From an uncultured Micrococcales bacterium (GTDB lineage: Bacteria; Actinomycetota; Actinomycetes; Actinomycetales; Microbacteriaceae), in the NCBI GenBank assembly GCA_903831585.1, contig CAIKYE010000171.1:1-14191 (forward strand): a stretch of 14,191 bases of DNA, in the 5' to 3' direction. Shown here piece after piece: positions 1,679-13,112 of the stretch. The notes under the pieces were generated by a model. It did no database searches, was not told the origin of the DNA, and worked only from the letters and a program-made list of their open reading frames with translations. The translations under genes and the position numbers were made by a program. Every line of letters begins with the position of its first letter. Position 1 is the first letter of the stretch.

Positions 1679-1689
1679 AGTTGGCGACC

Positions 1690-2307
1690 ATGGAAAAGAA
1701 ATTGCAACGCATTCACCGACCGGCTTTGGTGGCTGCAATACTCGGGCCGATTCAGGTTGTCGTCGGTTTCAATCTCGCCCAGGCTCTCTGGCCCGAATTC
1801 GACCCGGTTGCCAAAACCATTAGCGATCTTGCCGCAGACGATTCGCCGGTTCAAGCGCTGATGACCTCTTTCTTCTACTTCGGCGGAACACTTTCGTTTC
1901 TCGTTGCCGGTTGGGCAAGAAGCTTCTCGATGCCGGGTCGAGTGACTCTTGCACTCGCCGGTTTGGCCACCTATGGTTTGGCATTCTTCACAACGCCTGA
2001 TCAAGACAGTTCTTCTTTGGCGCACAGAATTTTTGCCATCATCTCGTTCGTGCTCTCGGCCGGATGGCCGCTTGCAGCCATGCGTTTTGATAAGCGCTAT
2101 CCATGGATACTTCGCCCCACCGGTGCGATTATCGGAACGACTCTATTGACCGCCTCGGCGCTCATATTTCTTGCCAGCTGGGCTGACCCCGCCTCGACCA
2201 TGACCGGAGTCTGGGAGCGCGTCATTGCTGTCAGCCAAACCTGGTACCTGGCGCTGGTCATCTGGATCTGCTGGTTCAGTGAGCGAAAGTTGCGCTCGAA
2301 AAGCTAA
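1690..2307 (+). CDS. DUF998-family integral membrane protein
   Basis: This is a hydrophobic protein of about 205 residues with roughly six predicted membrane spans. The first follows a short basic N-terminus (KKLQRIHR), and a basic tail (ERKLRSKS) ends the protein. The family call rests on the conserved pattern near the first loop, DPVAKTISDLAADDSP, which matches the PxSDLgA-SP signature of DUF998 proteins, and on WERV before the last span, as DUF998 members often have. The molecular function of the family is unknown. The first possible start is TTG at 1681, only two bases after the upstream stop; ATG at 1690 is chosen as the more usual codon. Neither has a clear ribosome site, so translation is probably coupled to the upstream gene. 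Only 24 bases separate its stop from the next gene, and I see no terminator there. Confidence 0.75.
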   Translation: MEKKLQRIHRPALVAAILGPIQVVVGFNLAQALWPEFDPVAKTISDLAADDSPVQALMTSFFYFGGTLSFLVAGWARSFSMPGRVTLALAGLATYGLAFFTTPDQDSSSLAHRIFAIISFVLSAGWPLAAMRFDKRYPWILRPTGAIIGTTLLTASALIFLASWADPASTMTGVWERVIAVSQTWYLALVIWICWFSERKLRSKS

Positions 2308-2318
2308 TTCACTGGCGC

Positions 2319-2324
2319 TATTGT
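2319..2324 (+). promoter_or_regulatory. Putative -10 box (TATTGT) of a leaderless promoter for the epimerase operon
   Basis: TATTGT fits the actinobacterial TANNNT -10 pattern and ends seven bases before the GTG at 2332. That is where transcription would begin if the mRNA started at the start codon. There is no Shine-Dalgarno upstream of the GTG, which fits leaderless translation. I find no convincing -35 at the right distance. Inferred, not measured. Confidence 0.4.
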
Positions 2325-2330
2325 TATTTT

Positions 2331-2344
2331 TGTGAGCGCTCTCA
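2331..2344. promoter_or_regulatory. LacI-family operator O1, overlapping the start codon of the aldose epimerase gene
   Basis: TGTGAGCGCTCTCA is an even-centred palindrome with six of seven pairs matching. It differs from the operator at 7455-7468 at only two positions, and it carries the TGTGAGCGCTCA core typical of the ideal lac operator. The GTG start codon at 2332 lies inside it, so bases 2332-2344 also encode MSAL and part of the next codon. A repressor bound here would cover the transcription start predicted from the -10 at 2319 and block the whole operon, including the repressor's own gene. Confidence 0.75.
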
Positions 2345-3240
2345 TTTCTAGCGATATTCTGCAGCTCGCCTCTGCAGATGGGTTCTGGCGCGCCGAGGTC
2401 AACCTGGTAGCCAGTGCGCTCGTGAGCCTTTGGTTTGAAGACATCGAGATTGTCACCTCGCCCTACCATGAGCCGGGCCGTGCCGCCGCTGGCGTGATTA
2501 TGGCGCCGTGGCCTAATCGACTTGAAGACGGTCGCTGGCAAATGGGCGCTCGCGAGTTTGCTGCCCCGATCAACGACGCTGAAGGTCACAACGCAAATCA
2601 CGGATTGGTTCTTGGCAAGGCTTTCGACGTGCTTGAGCGCAGCGAAAGTAGTTTGCGTTTAGAGACGAACCTGTTCGATGCCGCCGCCTATCCCTTTGAC
2701 GTCACTTTGACAGTAAATTTCATATTGCAAAACACCGGCCTCGAGATAAACATTTCAACCAAGAACTGCGACAAGGTCTCTGCACCAATTGCATTTGGGT
2801 TACACCCCTATTTCGTGGCCGAACAAAGCTCTCAGTTGCAACTCAACGCCAAAACGTTGATTTCAAAGAATGAGCGCAACCTGCCCACGCAAGCAATATC
2901 AATCGAAGAGTCGACGGTTGCAAAACAGGGCCTCAATCTGGTTGAGCATTTGCAAGTTGATGACTGTTTTACCGATCTGATTGCAGAAGACGGTTTCTCT
3001 GTTACGCGCTTGAGCAGACCGGCCGCAGGCCTGACCGTAGAAATACGACAGACAGAAGAGCTCAGTTATTTGATGCTCTATACCTTGCAAGAAGAGGCAA
3101 AGCAAAAACGCAGGCTTATCGCTATTGAGCCGCAAACGGCACCGGTAAATGCCTTCAAGAAACTAGACCAGGTAAAAATTCTCGGCGCTGGCGAATCATT
3201 TGGCGCAACCTGCATGATCAACCTTAGGAAAAACACATGA
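2332..3240 (+). CDS. Aldose 1-epimerase (mutarotase) family protein
   Basis: The gene encodes 302 residues, the usual size of a mutarotase-fold (galactose mutarotase-like) protein. The family is supported by APWPNRLEDGRW near residue 60, the NHG motif with H90, GLHPYF with H158 (the expected catalytic acid), VDDCFTDL, and EPQTAPVNAF with E266 (the expected catalytic base). The enzyme interconverts alpha and beta anomers of aldoses in the cytoplasm, which would feed AraA the anomer it uses. GTG at 2332 is the only standard start between the upstream in-frame stop and the first conserved strand (VNLVASALVSL). No ribosome site precedes it, so a leaderless mRNA is likely. The start lies inside a LacI-type operator. 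The stop overlaps the next start by ATGA at 3237-3240, making this the first gene of the arabinose operon. Confidence 0.88.
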   Translation: MSALISSDILQLASADGFWRAEVNLVASALVSLWFEDIEIVTSPYHEPGRAAAGVIMAPWPNRLEDGRWQMGAREFAAPINDAEGHNANHGLVLGKAFDVLERSESSLRLETNLFDAAAYPFDVTLTVNFILQNTGLEINISTKNCDKVSAPIAFGLHPYFVAEQSSQLQLNAKTLISKNERNLPTQAISIEESTVAKQGLNLVEHLQVDDCFTDLIAEDGFSVTRLSRPAAGLTVEIRQTEELSYLMLYTLQEEAKQKRRLIAIEPQTAPVNAFKKLDQVKILGAGESFGATCMINLRKNT

Positions 3241-3611
3241 GCCAAGACCTGCGCTGGAAGCCTTTCGGTAACTACTCGAAGGATGCAAGAGTGAGTATCG
3301 CTGTTTCGGCCATCGCGGTGATTTTTGCAGCCGAGACGTTTCTGAATCCGGCTGGTGCCTATGAACCCTTCATGTCGGTTCTGGCATTTGCGTCGGCTGG
3401 AGTCGCTGGCTTCAGAGCCTTCAAGACCAGGGCCTACCTGGGCTTTCTGGCTCTGCCGCTATCGCTCGTTTGGCTCAACCCGCTGCTCGGTGGCAACTGG
3501 TTCGACTCGATCTCGCAGATTCACTTTGCCGCCCACTCGGCCTATGCCATGCTCTTCGCGCTCTATGCCTATACCTTCATGCGCATGGCGGTGACCAAGC
3601 CAAATGCCTAA
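3237..3611 (+). CDS. Small uncharacterised membrane protein inside the arabinose operon
   Basis: This 124-residue protein has about four hydrophobic segments: residues about 19-36, 43-60, 66-84 and 97-114. The short polar N-terminus (MSQDLRWKPFGNYSKDAR) probably faces the cytoplasm. The stretch LALPLSLVWLNPLLGGNWFD with following helices recalls small actinobacterial membrane proteins of the DUF6804 type, but I hold that weakly. There are no catalytic motifs, and its function is unknown. It starts by a 4-base ATGA overlap with the epimerase gene and overlaps the next start by eight bases, so it must be co-transcribed with the sugar genes. Whether it takes part in arabinose use or simply hitchhikes cannot be told from the sequence. 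Confidence 0.8.
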   Translation: MSQDLRWKPFGNYSKDARVSIAVSAIAVIFAAETFLNPAGAYEPFMSVLAFASAGVAGFRAFKTRAYLGFLALPLSLVWLNPLLGGNWFDSISQIHFAAHSAYAMLFALYAYTFMRMAVTKPNA

Positions 3612-4038
3612 CGAAAATTGGGTTGGCTTCGCCAAGTCGCCTAAGCCGAACCCAGATCTGTCAGCTTTGCACGTTGCGTCGACAGTCGAGTTCGCTTCTC
3701 CAGTCGACAAGGTTTTCAAGTTAGTAACCTCCGTTGAAGGTTTGAGTTCGTGGCTGCACAAGCTTGAAAAAAGCGAGGTGCGAACTTCGGGAAAAATTCA
3801 GTTTGCCGATGTTGCCGAAGAGTTACAGAGTGCAGTTTTCTCGCATGTTGAGCTTGGTCGCCGAGTCGTCATCAACAGCGAAATGTTTGGCGAGATCTCG
3901 ATTGCTTTTGAAAAGCGCACGCCTGAGATGTCCATCAGTTTTACAAAACTTGTCAGCGCTGAGAACCGAGAGCAAGAGCAGAAACTCTTTGATGGATTGA
4001 TTTCGAAGCTCAGGGACAAAGTGGGTGAGCTGTCTTGA
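3604..4038 (+). CDS. SRPBCC (START/Bet v 1-like) superfamily protein
   Basis: The 144-residue protein shows the opening typical of the SRPBCC fold: a strand (STVEFASPVDKVFKLV) followed by a helix containing a 'WL' (VEGLSSWLHKLE). Alternating strands follow, then a C-terminal amphipathic helix (QEQKLFDGLISKLRDKVGEL). Such proteins form a deep hydrophobic pocket and bind lipids, polyketides or other small ligands; some are co-chaperones (AHSA1-like). No ligand can be assigned here. The gene starts eight bases before the upstream stop, and its TGA shares bases with the TTG start of the repressor gene (TTGA at 4035-4038). It is thus locked between a membrane protein and the LacI-family regulator, which is unusual for a sugar operon. 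Confidence 0.7.
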   Translation: MPNENWVGFAKSPKPNPDLSALHVASTVEFASPVDKVFKLVTSVEGLSSWLHKLEKSEVRTSGKIQFADVAEELQSAVFSHVELGRRVVINSEMFGEISIAFEKRTPEMSISFTKLVSAENREQEQKLFDGLISKLRDKVGELS

Positions 4039-5081
4039 ACACAAAAAAGTCAAACATCTACGACGTTGCTGCTCTCGCTGGTGTTTCGCACCAAACCGTT
4101 TCTAGAGTGCTAAACAATCAGCCGAACATAAGACCGGCAACCAAGTCGAGGGTTGAGGCTGCCATGGCAGAACTCGGTTATCAGCCAAACCCGGCAGCTA
4201 GGTCGATGGGCGCTGGTCGAAGCAACATGATTGGTCTGCTCGTCGCAGACACCGGTCTATATGGACCGGCGGGAATGCTTAATGCAATGGAGCGTCAGGC
4301 GCGACAGGCAGGCTACTTTGCAATCACGGTAGCGGTTAAGTACGACTCTCGCGAATCCTGGGCCGAGGGTATGCAGCACTTTGCGAAGCTGCACGTCGAG
4401 GGAGTCGCAACTATTGCTTTGCCATCTGAGGTGCTCGATCTCGCCGCGGGCTTGATGCCCAATGTGAAGCTAGTTGCCATAGATGCCGACCAAAGTGTCG
4501 ACAATGGACAGTCTGTCGGCATCGACAATCTCGAAGGTGGCTACATTGCAACAAAGCACTTGCTTGAACTTGGGCATCGCAAAATTCTGCACATCTCTGG
4601 ACCGTCAGCGTCGTCTGAGTCGAAAAATCGTGTTCGCGGTTATGAGCGGGCCATGAAAGAGGCGGGGCTAGAGCCGTTCATAATTCAGGGTGACTGGTCG
4701 TCTGAAACGGGCCATCGAATCGGAATCGAACTTGATATCGATACAAAAGGATTTACGGCTATTTTCACTGCCAACGACCACTTGGCCCTTGGCGTTTACA
4801 AGGCCCTTTCGAGTCGAGGTTTGCGTGTGCCAGAAGACCTAAGCATCGTGGGCTTCGACGATATTCCTGAGGCTCCTTACCTCAATCCACCGCTAACCAC
4901 CGTTCGCCAAGACTTCGCTCAACTGGGCGAGCTGGCAATTCAACTTCTTCTGAGTGACCTTGCAGGCGCTAAACGCAAGAAAACCGCCTCAATCAAGCCG
5001 CAACTTGTTCTTCGTGATTCAGCAACCAGATATTCAGGCAAGAGCCAAACTTCAAGCAATAGAAAGCCGGGCAACAAATGA
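4035..5081 (+). CDS. LacI-family transcriptional repressor, probable regulator of the arabinose genes
   Basis: The 348-residue protein has an N-terminal helix-turn-helix at residues 8-27 (YDVAALAGVSHQTVSRVLN), a hinge helix at about 51-60, and a periplasmic-binding-protein-like effector domain from about 65 to 330. Late conserved blocks include FTANDHLALGVYKAL and DLSIVGFDDIP. In the recognition helix, H19, Q20 and R24 correspond to Y17, Q18 and R22 of E. coli LacI, the residues that read TGTGAGC. Two such operators lie in the window, at 2331 and 7455. The usual hinge leucine that intercalates into operator DNA is M58 here (ARSMGAGRS). Start: TTG at 4035 overlapping the upstream TGA. A weak start codon would keep repressor levels low. 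The stop overlaps araB by ATGA. The inducer is unknown, but arabinose or a pathway intermediate is the natural candidate. Confidence 0.92.
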   Translation: MNTKKSNIYDVAALAGVSHQTVSRVLNNQPNIRPATKSRVEAAMAELGYQPNPAARSMGAGRSNMIGLLVADTGLYGPAGMLNAMERQARQAGYFAITVAVKYDSRESWAEGMQHFAKLHVEGVATIALPSEVLDLAAGLMPNVKLVAIDADQSVDNGQSVGIDNLEGGYIATKHLLELGHRKILHISGPSASSESKNRVRGYERAMKEAGLEPFIIQGDWSSETGHRIGIELDIDTKGFTAIFTANDHLALGVYKALSSRGLRVPEDLSIVGFDDIPEAPYLNPPLTTVRQDFAQLGELAIQLLLSDLAGAKRKKTASIKPQLVLRDSATRYSGKSQTSSNRKPGNK

Positions 5082-6736
5082 GCGCAAAGTACACAATCGG
5101 AGTCGATTACGGAACCCTATCCGGCCGTGCGGTAGTGGTCAGGGTTTCTGACGGCACCGAAATGGCGAGTGCTGTCTTTGAATATCCAAACGCGGTCATG
5201 GATGAGCAACTCAACTCAACCGGAAAGCCGTTGGCACCCGACTGGGCTTTGCAAGACGCAAACGACTATGTAGAGGTTTTGAAGCATGCCGTTCCAGAAG
5301 CGGTCAAGTTAGCGGGCATAGATGCTGCTGACGTAGTGGCAATCGCAACCGACTTCACGGCTTGCACAATTTTGCCGGTGCTCGAAGACTCGACGCCATT
5401 GTCGAATCTTGATGAGTTTCGAGATCGGCCGCACGCCTACGTGAAGCTCTGGAAGCATCACGCGGCGCAGCCGCACGCCGATCGAATAAATCAGATGGCG
5501 CGCGATAGAAACGAAGCGTGGTTGCCACGATACGGTGGCCAAATTTCTTCGGAGTGGGAACTTGCCAAGGGGTTGCAGCTTTTCGAAGAAGACCAAGAGA
5601 TTTACGACCGCATGTTTAAGTTCGTCGAGGCCGCCGACTGGATTGTTTGGAAACTCGCAGGTAAGTATGTTCGCAACGCTTGCACCGCCGGCTACAAGGG
5701 CAATCTGCAAGACGGCAAGTATCCGTCGACAGAGTTCTTTGCCGCGCTCAACTCAGGCTTCGCCAACTTTGCCGTTGAAAAGCTCGACCACGAAATCGGG
5801 CAACTCGGTGCCGAAGCCGGAAAGCTGACGGCAGAGGCAGCAGCCTGGACCGGCCTTCGCGAGGGAATCACGGTTGCCGTTGGCAACGTCGACGCACACG
5901 TGACGGCACCGGCTGCGCAGGCCACCCAGCCGGGCCAGATGGTTGCCATCATGGGCACCTCGACCTGTCACGTTATGAACAGCGACAAACTCGTCGAGGT
6001 TCCTGGCATGTGCGGAGTGGTTGACGGCGGCATTGTCAGCGGGCTCTATGGCTATGAGGCCGGGCAGTCTGGCGTCGGCGACATCTTCGCCTGGTATGTC
6101 AACAATCAGGTGCCTGCCGAATACTTTGAAGCTGCCGAGAAGGCCGGCAAGAGCATTCACCAGCACCTGACCGATCTCGCGGCCGAAGAAGCAGTCGGTG
6201 CCCACGGATTAGTTGTGCTCGACTGGCACAGCGGAAACCGCAGCGTTCTGGTTGATCACGAGTTGAGCGGTTTGGTTGTCGGGCTTACCCTAACAACCAA
6301 GCCCGAGCAGATTTATCGTGCACTGCTCGAGGCAACCGCATTCGGTACACGCAAGATTGTTGAAACCTTTCAAAAGTCTGGAGTGCCGGTTACCGAATTC
6401 ATCGTTGCCGGTGGCTTGCTAAAGAACCAGTTTCTGATGCAGCTCTACAGCGATGCAACGCGCTTGCCGCTATCAACCATTGCGAGTGACCAAGGCCCGG
6501 CACTCGGTTCTGCGATTCACGCTGCGGTTGCTGCTGGCGAATACGCAAACATCCGTGATGCGGCCGAGGCCATGGGAAAATCAAACCGTGGCGTATATCA
6601 ACCAAACGAGGCTGCGTCTCTTGAATATGACAAGTTGTATGCAGAGTATGAAACATTGCACGACTACTTTGGTCGTGGAGTAAACGACGTAATGAAACGG
6701 CTAAAGAACATTCGACGTGAGGCAATCAATGAGTAA
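5078..6736 (+). CDS. araB: Ribulokinase (AraB), L-arabinose catabolism
   Basis: AraB phosphorylates L-ribulose with ATP to L-ribulose 5-phosphate in the cytoplasm. The 552 residues match the FGGY kinase family in the ribulokinase subgroup: an N-terminal phosphate loop (GVDYGTLSGRAVVV, residues 8-21), AIATDFTACT, LWKHHAA, GGQISSEW, and the catalytic aspartate region GNVDAH with D272. MGTSTCH and EAGQSGVGDIFAW follow, then the C-terminal GGLLKNQF and SDQGPALGSAIHAAVA nucleotide-binding segments. The length is normal (about 560 residues in E. coli), and no truncation is seen. ATG at 5078 overlaps the repressor stop by ATGA; the stop overlaps the start of araD by eight bases, so translation is coupled through the whole unit. 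Expression should follow the operator at 2331. Confidence 0.96.
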   Translation: MSAKYTIGVDYGTLSGRAVVVRVSDGTEMASAVFEYPNAVMDEQLNSTGKPLAPDWALQDANDYVEVLKHAVPEAVKLAGIDAADVVAIATDFTACTILPVLEDSTPLSNLDEFRDRPHAYVKLWKHHAAQPHADRINQMARDRNEAWLPRYGGQISSEWELAKGLQLFEEDQEIYDRMFKFVEAADWIVWKLAGKYVRNACTAGYKGNLQDGKYPSTEFFAALNSGFANFAVEKLDHEIGQLGAEAGKLTAEAAAWTGLREGITVAVGNVDAHVTAPAAQATQPGQMVAIMGTSTCHVMNSDKLVEVPGMCGVVDGGIVSGLYGYEAGQSGVGDIFAWYVNNQVPAEYFEAAEKAGKSIHQHLTDLAAEEAVGAHGLVVLDWHSGNRSVLVDHELSGLVVGLTLTTKPEQIYRALLEATAFGTRKIVETFQKSGVPVTEFIVAGGLLKNQFLMQLYSDATRLPLSTIASDQGPALGSAIHAAVAAGEYANIRDAAEAMGKSNRGVYQPNEAASLEYDKLYAEYETLHDYFGRGVNDVMKRLKNIRREAINE

Positions 6737-7403
6737 TGAAATTCAAATCGAGCTGGCAAGCAAAGTAGTTTGCGATCTTCACCTAGAGTTGGTAAAAAAC
6801 CATCTTGTCGTTTGGACCGGTGGAAACATCTCAGAGCGAATCAGATTCGCAGATGGTTCGCCAGACCTTTTCGTGATTAAGCCATCTGGGGTTTCTTATG
6901 ACAGCTTGAAACCCGACGTCATGGTGGTCTGCGATCTCGATGGCAACGTCGTTACCGGTTCGCAAAAGCCCTCAAGTGACACAGCAGCTCACGCCTATGT
7001 CTACAGAAACATGCCAGAGGTCGGGGGAGTCGTGCACACCCACAGCAACTACGCGACCGCATGGGCCGCCATCGGCGAACCAATTCCCTGCGTGCTCACC
7101 GCAATCGCAGACGAGTTCGGTGCCGAGATACCGGTTGGTCCATTTGCCAAGATCGGTGATGACAGCATCGGCCAGGGCATCGTTGCGACTCTCAAGGGGC
7201 ATCGCTCGCCTGCAGTGCTCATGCAAAACCACGGTGTCTTCACAATTGGCAAGAATGGCAGGGATGCCGTCAAGGCTGCCGTGATGTGCGAAGACGCCGC
7301 CAAGACCGTGTTTATTGCTCGTCAACTGGGCGGCCCGCTGCCGATCAGCCAGGCCGATATCGATTCTTTACACAGTCGTTATCAAAACGTTTATGGAAGT
7401 TAA
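6729..7403 (+). CDS. araD: L-ribulose-5-phosphate 4-epimerase (AraD)
   Basis: This class II aldolase-fold zinc enzyme converts L-ribulose 5-phosphate to D-xylulose 5-phosphate, the last step before the pentose phosphate pathway. The 224 residues show TGGNIS (30-35) and KPSG (51-54) phosphate-binding segments, SSDT with D84, the metal ligands H103 and H105 in VVHTHS, and the third metal histidine H168 in QNHGVF. These are equivalent to D76, H95, H97 and H171 of E. coli AraD. ATG at 6729 is chosen over the GTG at 6717 because GAGG at 6719-6722 sits six bases before it. It overlaps the araB stop by eight bases. It is the last gene of unit 1; I see no clear hairpin terminator directly after it, only a short T run at 7407-7411. 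Confidence 0.95.
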   Translation: MSNEIQIELASKVVCDLHLELVKNHLVVWTGGNISERIRFADGSPDLFVIKPSGVSYDSLKPDVMVVCDLDGNVVTGSQKPSSDTAAHAYVYRNMPEVGGVVHTHSNYATAWAAIGEPIPCVLTAIADEFGAEIPVGPFAKIGDDSIGQGIVATLKGHRSPAVLMQNHGVFTIGKNGRDAVKAAVMCEDAAKTVFIARQLGGPLPISQADIDSLHSRYQNVYGS

Positions 7404-7454: not shown

Positions 7455-7468
7455 TGTGAGCGCTCACC
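7455..7468. promoter_or_regulatory. LacI-family operator O2 upstream of the sugar-binding protein gene
   Basis: TGTGAGCGCTCACC contains a perfect 12-base palindrome (GTGAGCGCTCAC, 7456-7467). Beyond one mismatched pair, the flanks AAA (7452-7454) and TTT (7469-7471) extend the symmetry, giving a 20-base site. The core equals the ideal symmetric lac operator, and it matches the site at 2331-2344 in 12 of 14 positions. It lies just upstream of a strong ribosome site and controls, by inference, the chvE-mmsA-mmsB-araA unit through the LacI-family protein encoded at 4035-5081. Confidence 0.85.
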
Positions 7469-7482
7469 TTTAGGAGGATGAC

Positions 7483-7602
7483 ATGGATCTTGTCCGCCAG
7501 TCGCCTCTTGGTGCGGCGCTCATATTTTTCTTAAGCTTCTGGTCGAGATGGACGCGATCAGGGATGGCACATAAGTCCAACTCAATCCCGAAAGGAACAC
7601 AA
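7483..7602 (+). other. 40-codon in-frame leader upstream of the binding-protein gene (leader peptide or N-terminal extension)
   Basis: An ATG at 7483 follows a consensus AGGAGG (7472-7477) by five bases and stays open, in frame, into the binding-protein gene. The encoded stretch begins [20 protein letters not shown] and continues with basic residues. Read through, it would give the lipoprotein a second hydrophobic segment and a non-standard 61-residue region before the lipobox cysteine. Its codons (for example TTA, AGA, GGG and ATA) are unlike the strongly biased codons of the gene body. I think the mature gene starts at 7603 and this is an untranslated or regulatory leader. A true N-terminal extension cannot be excluded. 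Confidence 0.4.
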
Positions 7603-8706
7603 TTGATTAAGAAAGTACTCGGCGTCGTAGCCGCAGGTGCTCTTCTAGTCGCGACCCTAACCGGTTGCGCTAGCTCGACCACCGCAGAAGGCGGCCTGAT
7701 TGGTGTATCAATGCCAACTCAGTCGTCAACCCGTTGGATTTCAGACGGTAACAGCATCAAAGACAAGCTCGTCGCAGACGGCTTCGATGTAGACCTACAG
7801 TATGCAGAAGATGACATTCCTACCCAGGTAACTCAGCTTGAAGGCATGCTAACCAAGGGTGCAAAGGCGCTAATCATTGCAGCAATCGACGGAACTCAGC
7901 TAACTGACGTTCTACAGAAGGCAGCAGATGCAAAGGTTCCAGTTATCTCTTACGACCGTTTGATCCGTGACTCAGCAAACGTTGACTACTACGCAACATT
8001 CGACAACTTCAAGGTGGGCGTGCTTCAGGCAACTTCACTTCTAGTTGGCATGGGCGTATACGCAACCGAAGCTAGCACTTCAGCAGACGGCGCAAACGCA
8101 GCAGGCCCATTGAACGTTGAGTTGTTCGCTGGTTCACCAGACGACAACAACGCAACCTTCTTCTTCAACGGTGCAATGTCAGTTCTTCAGCCACTAATCG
8201 ACAGCGGTGTTCTAGTTGTCAAGTCTGGCCAGACTGACTTCACTCAGGTAGCTACCCTCCGTTGGGACGGCGCAGTTGCTCAGAAGCGTATGGACGACAT
8301 CCTTGTTGGTTCATACAAGGGCGGCGCAAAGGTTAACGGTGTTCTTTCACCATATGACGGTCTAAGCCGCGGAATCATCGCGTCTCTAACCGCAGCTGGT
8401 TACACCGCAGCTGACCTTCCAACCGTTACTGGTCAGGACGCAGAAGTTCTATCGGTTAAGTCAATGATCGCTGGCGAGCAGTACTCGACCATCTTCAAGG
8501 ACACCCGTGAGCTAGCTGCAGTTGCAGTTGCAATGGCTGAGGCTCTTCTAAAGGGAGAGACCCCAGAGACCAACGACACCACAACCTATGACAATGGCGT
8601 GAAGACTGTACCTTCATACCTATTGACCCCTTACATCGTGACCACTGACAACTACAAGGAATTGCTAGTTGACTCGGGTTACATCGCAGAGGCTGACCTA
8701 GGTTAG
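7603..8706 (+). CDS. chvE: ChvE-like monosaccharide-binding lipoprotein of a CUT2 ABC transporter
   Basis: This is the extracellular solute receptor that delivers sugars to the MmsA/MmsB transporter. From the TTG at 7603 the protein begins with a lipoprotein signal peptide (basic IKK, hydrophobic core, lipobox LTGC with C22), so it is anchored to the outer face of the membrane. The body is a periplasmic-binding protein type 1 fold, very close by eye to Agrobacterium Chv[90 protein letters not shown] and VPSYLL. ChvE binds arabinose, xylose, galactose and glucose, so arabinose fits. TTG has AAAGGA (7591-7596) six bases upstream; ATG at 7483 is an alternative start 40 codons earlier. Codon choice is strongly skewed to GCA, CTA, TCA and CCA, suggesting high expression. 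A hairpin follows the stop. Confidence 0.95.
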
Positions 8707-11606: not shown

Positions 11607-13112
11607 ATGGCAAAAGTGAATAAGAAGTATGAAATTTGGTTTCTAACCGGAAGCCAGAATCTCTACGGCGAAGAAACCCTCAAGCAGGTTGCCGAACAGT
11701 CCAAGTTGGTTCTCGAGCAGTTGCAGAAGAACGTGTCTGCCCCGGTCGACTTGGTCTGGAAGCCCGTTCTTAAGACGCCAGACGCGATTCGTCGCCAGAT
11801 GCTCGACGCTAGCGCCGATGACAACTGCGTCGGTGTTATCACCTGGATGCACACCTTCTCGCCGGCAAAGATGTGGATTGCCGGTCTAGACGCACTGCAG
11901 AAGCCACTGCTTCACCTTCACACTCAGGCAAACCAGTCACTTCCTTGGGCAACCATCGACATGGATTTCATGAACCTCAACCAGGCCGCTCACGGAGATC
12001 GCGAGTATGCCCACATGGTCAGTCGCATGTCGATAGCGCGCAAGGTCGTCGTCGGCGAACCGGCGTCGAAGACGGTCGGCAGTCACGTGACCGCTTGGGC
12101 CTATGCGACCATCGGGTGGAACACTTCTCAGAACCTGAAGCTAGCCCGCTTCGGCGACAACATGCGTTACGTGTCGGTTACCGACGGCGACAAGGTTTCG
12201 GCCCAGATGCAGTTCGGTATGTCTATCGAGCAGTTCGGCGTCAACACTCTCGTCGATGCGGTAGCTAAGGTCTCTGATTCGGCTGCCGAAGCGCTGTGCG
12301 AGGTTTACGAGCGCGATTACGACGTGGTTGCAGAGTTGCGCAAGAATGGCGCTCGCCACGAATCGTTGGTCTACGGAGCCAAGATTGAGATCGCTCTGCG
12401 TTCAATTCTGGAGGCCGGAGACTTCAACGCTTTCACTAGCAACTTCGAAGATCTGGGTGAATTACGTCAGCTTCCTGGTCTAGCCGTTCAGCGACTAATG
12501 GCAGACGGCTATGGCTTCGGTGGCGAGGGCGACTGGAAGACCAGCGCGCTCGGGGCAATTCTGAAGAGCATGACCCCGACCGGTGGCGGAACCTCATTCA
12601 TGGAGGACTACACCTATCACTTTGGTCCAGGACCCGCGCTTGTGCTCGGCGCACACATGCTCGAGGTTTGCCCAACAATCTCGGGTCAGAAGCCTCGCAT
12701 TGAAATTCACCCGCTCGGAATCGGCGGCAAAGAAGACCCGGTTCGCATGGTCTTCACGGCAAAGCCCGCCGAAGGTCGAGTGGTTTGTCTCGTCGACTTG
12801 GGCGACCGCTTCAGAATGATTTCGAACGAAATCGAAATCGTTGATCCAACAGAAGACCTGCCTAACCTGCCGGTTGCCCGTGCGGTTTGGAAGCCACAAC
12901 CATCACTCGAAACCTCGGCTGAGGCATGGATGCTGGCTGGCGGTAGTCACCACACGGTATTGACTAACTCGGTAACCGCAGAGGCCATCGAAGACTTCGC
13001 GCGAATTGCAAAGGTTGAGCTTGTCGCAATAGATGAGAGCACAGAAATGCGTGCGTTCCGCAAAGAACTTCAGTGGAGCGCCGCCTACCACCGATTGGCA
13101 GAGCGCCTCTAA
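11607..13112 (+). CDS. araA: L-arabinose isomerase (AraA)
   Basis: AraA converts L-arabinose to L-ribulose in the cytoplasm using a divalent metal, usually Mn2+. The 501 residues equal the normal length and align by eye with E. coli AraA throughout: [56 protein letters not shown] and [23 protein letters not shown]. The four metal/catalytic residues are all present: E307, E333 (FMEDYTYHF), H350 ([10 protein letters not shown]) and H449 (GGSHHTV), equivalent to E. coli E306, E333, H350 and H450. ATG at 11607 begins 12 bases after the permease stop with no good ribosome site, so translational coupling is likely. It is the last gene of the transporter unit and is thus separated from araB and araD. 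Its stop overlaps the stop of the opposing dehydrogenase gene. Confidence 0.97.

Follow-up and report, generated by a model that had tools for sequence, protein, structure and literature searches.

The locus described here raises the question of how one short segment of DNA can serve both as a repressor site and as the beginning of a gene, and which of these functions holds its sequence constant. In the window (the whole stretch of 14,191 nucleotides analysed, from an uncultured Micrococcales bacterium), a probable LacI-family operator, TGTGAGCGCTCTCA, lies at positions 2331-2344 of the forward strand, as judged from its dyad, its conservation and related sites. It holds the GTG start codon (2332-2334) of an aldose 1-epimerase gene (2332-3240, forward strand; PF01263, E 3.7e-30). 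This GTG is the first start of the 302-residue ORF and is followed by AGC GCT CTC A(TT), which gives M-S-A-L-I. A probable −10 box, TATTGT (TANNNT), occupies 2319-2324 with its first base at −13, and seven bases (2325-2331) separate it from the GTG. The co-oriented upstream gene, encoding a DUF998 protein, stops at 2305-2307, 24 bases before the GTG, and no purine-rich ribosome site is present in the gap between them (2308-2331). The −35 match upstream of the box is poor. The initial annotation had described the start codon and the MSAL codons within the site, as well as a TANNNT box ending seven bases before a GTG that lacks a ribosome site, and all of this is read directly in the sequence. 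Its palindrome stood in part: six of the seven base pairs match, but T2333 and T2342 do not pair and the dyad is imperfect. The idea that this imperfection avoids a hairpin over the start codon was abandoned, because the folding differences were inconsistent among the window's genome (G000, no change) and two relatives discussed below (G035, 0.5 kcal/mol; G087, 3.8 kcal/mol).

The genes around the site, all on the forward strand, indicate what it may control. In the presumed operon, the second gene (3237-3611) encodes a small hydrophobic protein which has no family match and is kept in G035 and G087, and the third (3604-4038) encodes a protein with weak polyketide cyclase/AHSA1-type (SRPBCC-like) similarity, both matches being below the curated cut-off. 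A LacI-family regulator gene (4035-5081), araB for L-ribulokinase (5078-6736; TIGR01234 above cut-off) and a gene for an araD-like L-ribulose-5-phosphate 4-epimerase (6729-7403) follow. The araD-like product scored above the cut-off of NF005123 and below that of the araD equivalog TIGR00760; its start was chosen by alignment to relatives. Further downstream are the gene of a sugar ABC transporter substrate-binding lipoprotein (7603-8706; NF040907, ChvE, above cut-off on a longer ORF), with a likely TTG start preceded by AAAGGAA in all five aligned genomes, and araA for L-arabinose isomerase (11607-13112; NF002795 above cut-off). The genes between these two were named from their sequences, outside the family scan, as encoding an ATP-binding protein and a permease. 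The scan covered 10 proteins of the window and gave no family match for the first ORF and the small hydrophobic protein. With araA, araB and an araD-like gene next to a transporter and a regulator, the locus is, by its gene content, one for L-arabinose utilisation. Just before the likely TTG start, an ATG preceded by AGGAGG opens a 40-codon in-frame stretch (7483-7602, containing SFWSRWTR), which is kept in G035 and G087 and is absent from two further genomes, G029 and G031. Its differences are spread over all codon positions, and it may be a leader peptide, an extension of the protein or conserved DNA.

The product of 4035-5081, encoded near the operator, carries a LacI-type helix-turn-helix and a sugar-binding domain (PF00356, E 4.6e-21; PF13377, E 5.3e-37), and the Lac and Pur repressors were among its best PDB matches. 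Orthologues which are 74% (G035) and 72% (G087) identical occupy the same place in the gene cluster. The LacI matches in G087 and G063 (L048, L054) were flagged with one internal stop, and the ORF list of G087 holds a normal 338-residue frame. The regulator is probably an arabinose-responsive repressor. A candidate second operator, the near-identical 14-mer TGTGAGCGCTCACC, lies about 5 kb away at 7455-7468, between genes and before the transporter genes; the same word is found in G035 and G087, and G029 and G031 have TGTGAGCGTTCACA and TGTGAACGCTCACA at the same place. Both sites in the window share the centre AGCGCT, and related sites occur in other loci; a palindromic site with a central CG thus recurs in the putative regulon.

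We consider it likely that a LacI-family arabinose repressor, predicted to bind at 2331-2344, blocks transcription initiation of a leaderless operon. RNA polymerase would bind at the TATTGT box and start transcription at or next to G2332, and the epimerase-membrane protein-SRPBCC-lacI-araB-araD mRNA would begin with its own GTG start codon. Without the inducing sugar, a dimer of the regulator encoded at 4035-5081 would lie across +1 (from about −1 to +13) and block initiation; the centre of the site is at about +6.5 from G2332, where a LacI-type dimer should stop it. The sugar would release the repressor, and the leaderless mRNA would be translated from its 5′ end. The repressor gene would limit its own synthesis, as it lies within its own operon. 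Of the steps in this scheme, the precise point where the transcript begins and the identity of the inducing sugar are the most doubtful.

Sites related to the operator were also compared in seven loci (L070-L075, L077) whose regulators are 45-50% identical to that of the window. Fourteen related dyads precede araB, araA or a transporter gene there; the following gene could be placed for 13 of them, and in 11 of the 13 no overlapping start codon opens a frame into that gene. The other two, the araB sites of G024 and G060, end on the A of an in-frame ATG; 27 bases further on is a second ATG, which has a Shine-Dalgarno word before it (AAGGAAAAGG). According to these comparator sites, a start codon together with the first codons inside the site is seen only in the operon that begins with the epimerase gene. 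The contact of the araB operator TGTTATCGCTAACA with the ATG in G024 and G060 (L072:11307-11322, L073:11857-11872) may be a milder form of overlap or chance. In G029 and G031 (L070:10261-10290, L071:2837-2866), about 12 bases separate the araB operator TGTTAGCGATAACA from a GTG start; it ends in TAACAT, a potential −10 box, and this may be a further compact layout.

The operator does not stand out as a word. When three mismatches are allowed, the window has two places that match it. The four strand-wise matches compare with 1.82 expected, and 28 of 200 shuffles also reached four, so that the word alone is not significant. Across the genome (1.26 Mb in 278 contigs) no enrichment of operator-like words was detected, with 39 sites at up to two mismatches from TGNGAGCGCTCNCA versus 65 for the reversed control. 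The size of this genome and its relatives hint at a link to the freshwater Luna-1 group (Rhodoluna, Aquiluna), which is a guess. Three exact or one-mismatch matches were found in the genome, at 2331-2344, at 7455-7468 and on another contig, the last being a one-mismatch operator-like word, TGTGAGCGCTGCCA, at G000:C111:5001-5014 (L002:1501-1514). Since palindrome word statistics were unenriched in both window and genome, they were dropped as evidence. The case for the site rests on its position and conservation.

Conservation was assessed in relatives with the same gene order. At E ≤ 1e-30, an epimerase match was found in 26 of 67 genomes of the genus, counting that of the window, and the epimerases of G035 (about 54-55% identical) and G087 (41%) stood out from the other 23, which were at most 37% identical. 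Both G035 and G087 share the order DUF998-epimerase-membrane protein-SRPBCC-LacI-araB-araD with the window, and the DNA comparison was made with these three genomes. In both relatives CTATTGTTATTT is kept, followed by one variable base and TGTGAGCGCTCTCATTTC. By the initial annotation, a palindrome not conserved in close relatives of like gene order would have counted against the idea; it is present in two of two. In an alignment of window positions 1681-5081, where overall identity is 48%, the longest identical runs are 18 bases (from 2331) and then 12 bases (from 2318). The block 2318-2348, comprising the −10 box, operator, start codon and first codons, is the best 31-column window in the 3.4 kb, with 30 of 31 columns identical in the three genomes versus 25 of 31 for the next best elsewhere. 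TATTGT is identical in all three, whereas the rest of the gap between the DUF998 and epimerase genes is not conserved and is tens of bases longer in G035. The pattern TGN[GAT]AGCGCT[CAT]NCA was found only in the window, G035 and G087 when the loci collected at that stage were scanned. A search with the 27-base block with one N retrieved only two genome_contigs records, which we take to be G035 and G087, from a collection of 84,980 species that may leave out near relatives of the window. A first scan of genome_contigs with a single protein found no relative, a scan of viral contigs gave no match, and a family sample of 398 genomes, assembled without G035 and G087, contained no epimerase at E ≤ 1e-40 except the window's own.

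Leaderless initiation was judged from the spacing of TANNNT to starts, with ORFs of at least 150 amino acids collected by a mechanical rule; 400,000 bases came from a same-genus genome in one contig (G006) and 226,057 bases from the window's genome. In G006, TANNNT begins at −12 in 42 of 295 ORFs and at −13 in 13 of 295, the second most common position upstream of starts; the average at the other printed offsets (excluding −14 and −11) is about 2.8. The 58 G006 ORFs with the box at −14 to −11 carry a Shine-Dalgarno-like word in six cases versus 120 of the 295 in all, and 16 of the 58 start with GTG. The −13 placement is thus usual for presumed leaderless starts in G006, and it is weakly supported in the sample from the window's genome (−12 in 13 of 160 ORFs, −13 in 3 of 160 with the epimerase counted; average about 1.5). 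A −10 box 6-7 bases before the start with no ribosome site, the layout taken as the mark of a leaderless gene, is what the epimerase gene has. In agreement with the initial annotation, the gene is probably leaderless, as the spacing statistics of the genus relative suggest.

Alternatively, the operator may be real and the gene not leaderless: the mRNA would come from the DUF998 promoter or from further upstream, the repressor would act as a roadblock and the GTG would be reached by coupled or Shine-Dalgarno-independent initiation. The weak −35 match and the position of the DUF998 gene, on the same strand so close upstream and kept there in both relatives, speak for such a transcript. We nevertheless regard it as improbable, since the TATTGT block is identical in a gap which is otherwise not conserved and is longer in G035, in G006 leaderless starts are marked by TANNNT at such a spacing, and the epimerase gene has no ribosome site.

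A promoter and operator overlapping the start would be expected to leave a trace in the codons. The three epimerases have 100 residues in common over 307 columns. Their codons 1-5 are identical, in a run of 17 nucleotides, and elsewhere in the gene such runs do not exceed 8; from column 7 onward, a single codon is common to all three in only 12 of the 89 same-residue columns other than M or W. The expectation that the first five codons are conserved at the synonymous level was thus borne out in the three genomes, the synonymous sites overlapped by the operator being conserved beyond the rest of the gene. The control starts of the DUF998, small protein, SRPBCC, LacI, araB, araD and araA genes (araA compared in G087 only) all differ within 17 bases, that of araB despite about 91-92% identity. 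The start of the one transporter gene compared out of three, which is 92-95% identical, is unchanged in its first 17 bases.

The frozen start could serve leaderless translation or mRNA stability, with the 5′-terminal sequence read by the ribosome, instead of repressor binding, and the conserved block does extend over the opening codons of an mRNA that is probably leaderless. That a near-identical 14-mer is kept 5 kb away, in an intergenic region before the transporter, makes this very unlikely. So does the homologue P0081, in which the block seems to be kept no further than the end of the operator. The protein predicted there begins upstream and reads SSAIVIF-VSAL, where the frame of the window through the −10 block reads AIVIF-VSAL, and it departs from the window's protein at codon 5, the operator end (as far as residues tell); the N at the point of divergence is compatible with the last A of the operator.

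The N-terminus was also compared among 84 protein homologues found at E ≤ 1e-40, a set which includes the window's own protein (P0001) and is therefore not independent of the three genomes. Five fragments beginning inside the protein (P0072, P0074, P0075, P0076 and P0084) were set aside; P0009 and P0073 were kept although shorter. Of the 79 that reach the N-terminus, 72 (the window's own counted) start with M or V followed by SALIS, and one more, P0081, diverges just past the operator. After thinning, the numbers for the SALIS starts are 29 of 36 at 90% identity, 17 of 20 at 80%, 14 of 16 at 70% and 5 of 5 at 60%. The proteins with this start include pairs down to 39% identity, and the 17 of them that are JGI entries all begin with V, taken here to stand for an actual GTG codon. 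Among 298 five-column windows, columns 2-6 take a rank between 8th and 25th, depending on thinning, which makes them highly but not uniquely conserved. It is hardly credible that MSALIS is conserved for the sake of the protein, the palindrome being a by-product: the peptide is kept in those 72 homologues, but in the three genomes the codons as well as the residues are identical, versus 12 of 89 columns elsewhere, the conservation runs into the untranslated −10 block and the more distant epimerases, among those with starts printed, begin differently.

Six homologues in three groups lack the MSAL start. P0002, P0003 and P0009, 81-82% identical to the window's protein, start with MSESCALI(P); P0069 and P0071 start with MNSIS and VNSLS; and P0070, 84% identical to the conserved homologues, starts with MRATS. 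Given these exceptions, one group of which is so close to the window's protein, the arrangement can be lost. In P0002, P0003 and P0009, the peptide MSESCALIP would fit a nine-base insertion splitting the operator. The initial annotation had predicted that the N-terminus should be frozen in relatives; this agrees with the DNA of both relatives and with most of the proteins, but not with these three groups. With transcription starting, translation starting, the repressor binding and MSAL being encoded on one stretch, the first four to five codons of the gene would evolve far more slowly than its remainder. Returning to the repressor, we lean somewhat towards the view that the GTG and Ser-Ala-Leu are kept because the repressor must read TGTGAGCGCTC, and that the protein tolerates them. 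With the same slight preference, the lineages with MSESCALI, MNSIS/VNSLS and MRATS may be those that moved or lost the operator and regained freedom of start and peptide.

LacI-family operators that also encode protein are exemplified by lac O2 in lacZ and gal OI in galE of E. coli; these serve as auxiliary operators, lie at a distance from the start codon and belong to genes that have leaders. Among the closest counterparts is the bifidobacterial LacI-family regulator AraQ, which, in passages of the report (PMC5928203), controls arabinose genes through operators that precede araBDA and, in some species, an ABC sugar transporter; the likeness is one of description, and the AraQ sites are described there as upstream of genes, whereas here the operator contains the start codon. 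In Corynebacterium glutamicum, the Zur (PMC2823685) and DtxR (PMC1382209) regulons include leaderless genes whose promoters carry regulator sites, and transcript starts were mapped there to the A of the ATG. The legend of the DtxR table (PMC1382209) states that start-codon bases in predicted motifs are underlined, so that an overlap with the start codon is not unheard of. These regulators belong to other families, and codon-level freezing of first codons is not claimed in the available parts of the two reports. A further mapped leaderless transcript of C. glutamicum is that of cysR, according to an excerpt of PMC2580772.

Leaderless catabolic operons under their own regulator are represented by acuR-acuI-dddL of Rhodobacter sphaeroides, with similar layouts reported in other taxa, but the excerpted report (PMC3017554) describes a TetR-family repressor whose operator overlaps the promoter upstream of the ATG and not the codons. 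Likewise, nreAXY of Mesorhizobium is, in the available sections of PMC12724321, a leaderless operon with its own repressor and a compact control region, the operator being located in the −35/−10 spacer. Leaderless starts are common in Actinobacteria: the text available from the respective reports gives about 33% as the share of leaderless transcripts in C. glutamicum (PMC5401885) and puts GUG at 29% of the leaderless starts in P. acnes (PMC3848588). Such overlaps may for this reason recur. In the accessible portions of the open-access literature, no account was found of a leaderless gene whose first codons are frozen by an operator. Each ingredient is known; the clean overlap of operator and start codon is a new variation on them.

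In this compact natural example, regulatory constraint appears to outweigh the drift of codons by a measurable margin: promoter, probable operator, start codon and peptide share one block of 31 columns. The arrangement allows a direct test of how a repressor shapes the end of a protein. Overlaps of this kind may also mislead start-site annotation, as with the predicted P0081, which begins upstream of the GTG.

A search for TANNNT followed by TGTGAGCGCTC, a narrow pattern that would miss other versions of the design, was made in the 398 family genomes sampled without G035 and G087. With a spacing of six it gave one place, in G254, where the frame stops after 17 residues. With a spacing of seven, it gave only the window site and one place in G329, a member of another genus of the family. 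There (L128:1501-1523), TAAGCT is followed after seven bases by GTGAGCGCTCC, which opens a frame of at least 100 codons, possibly an independent case of the same design.
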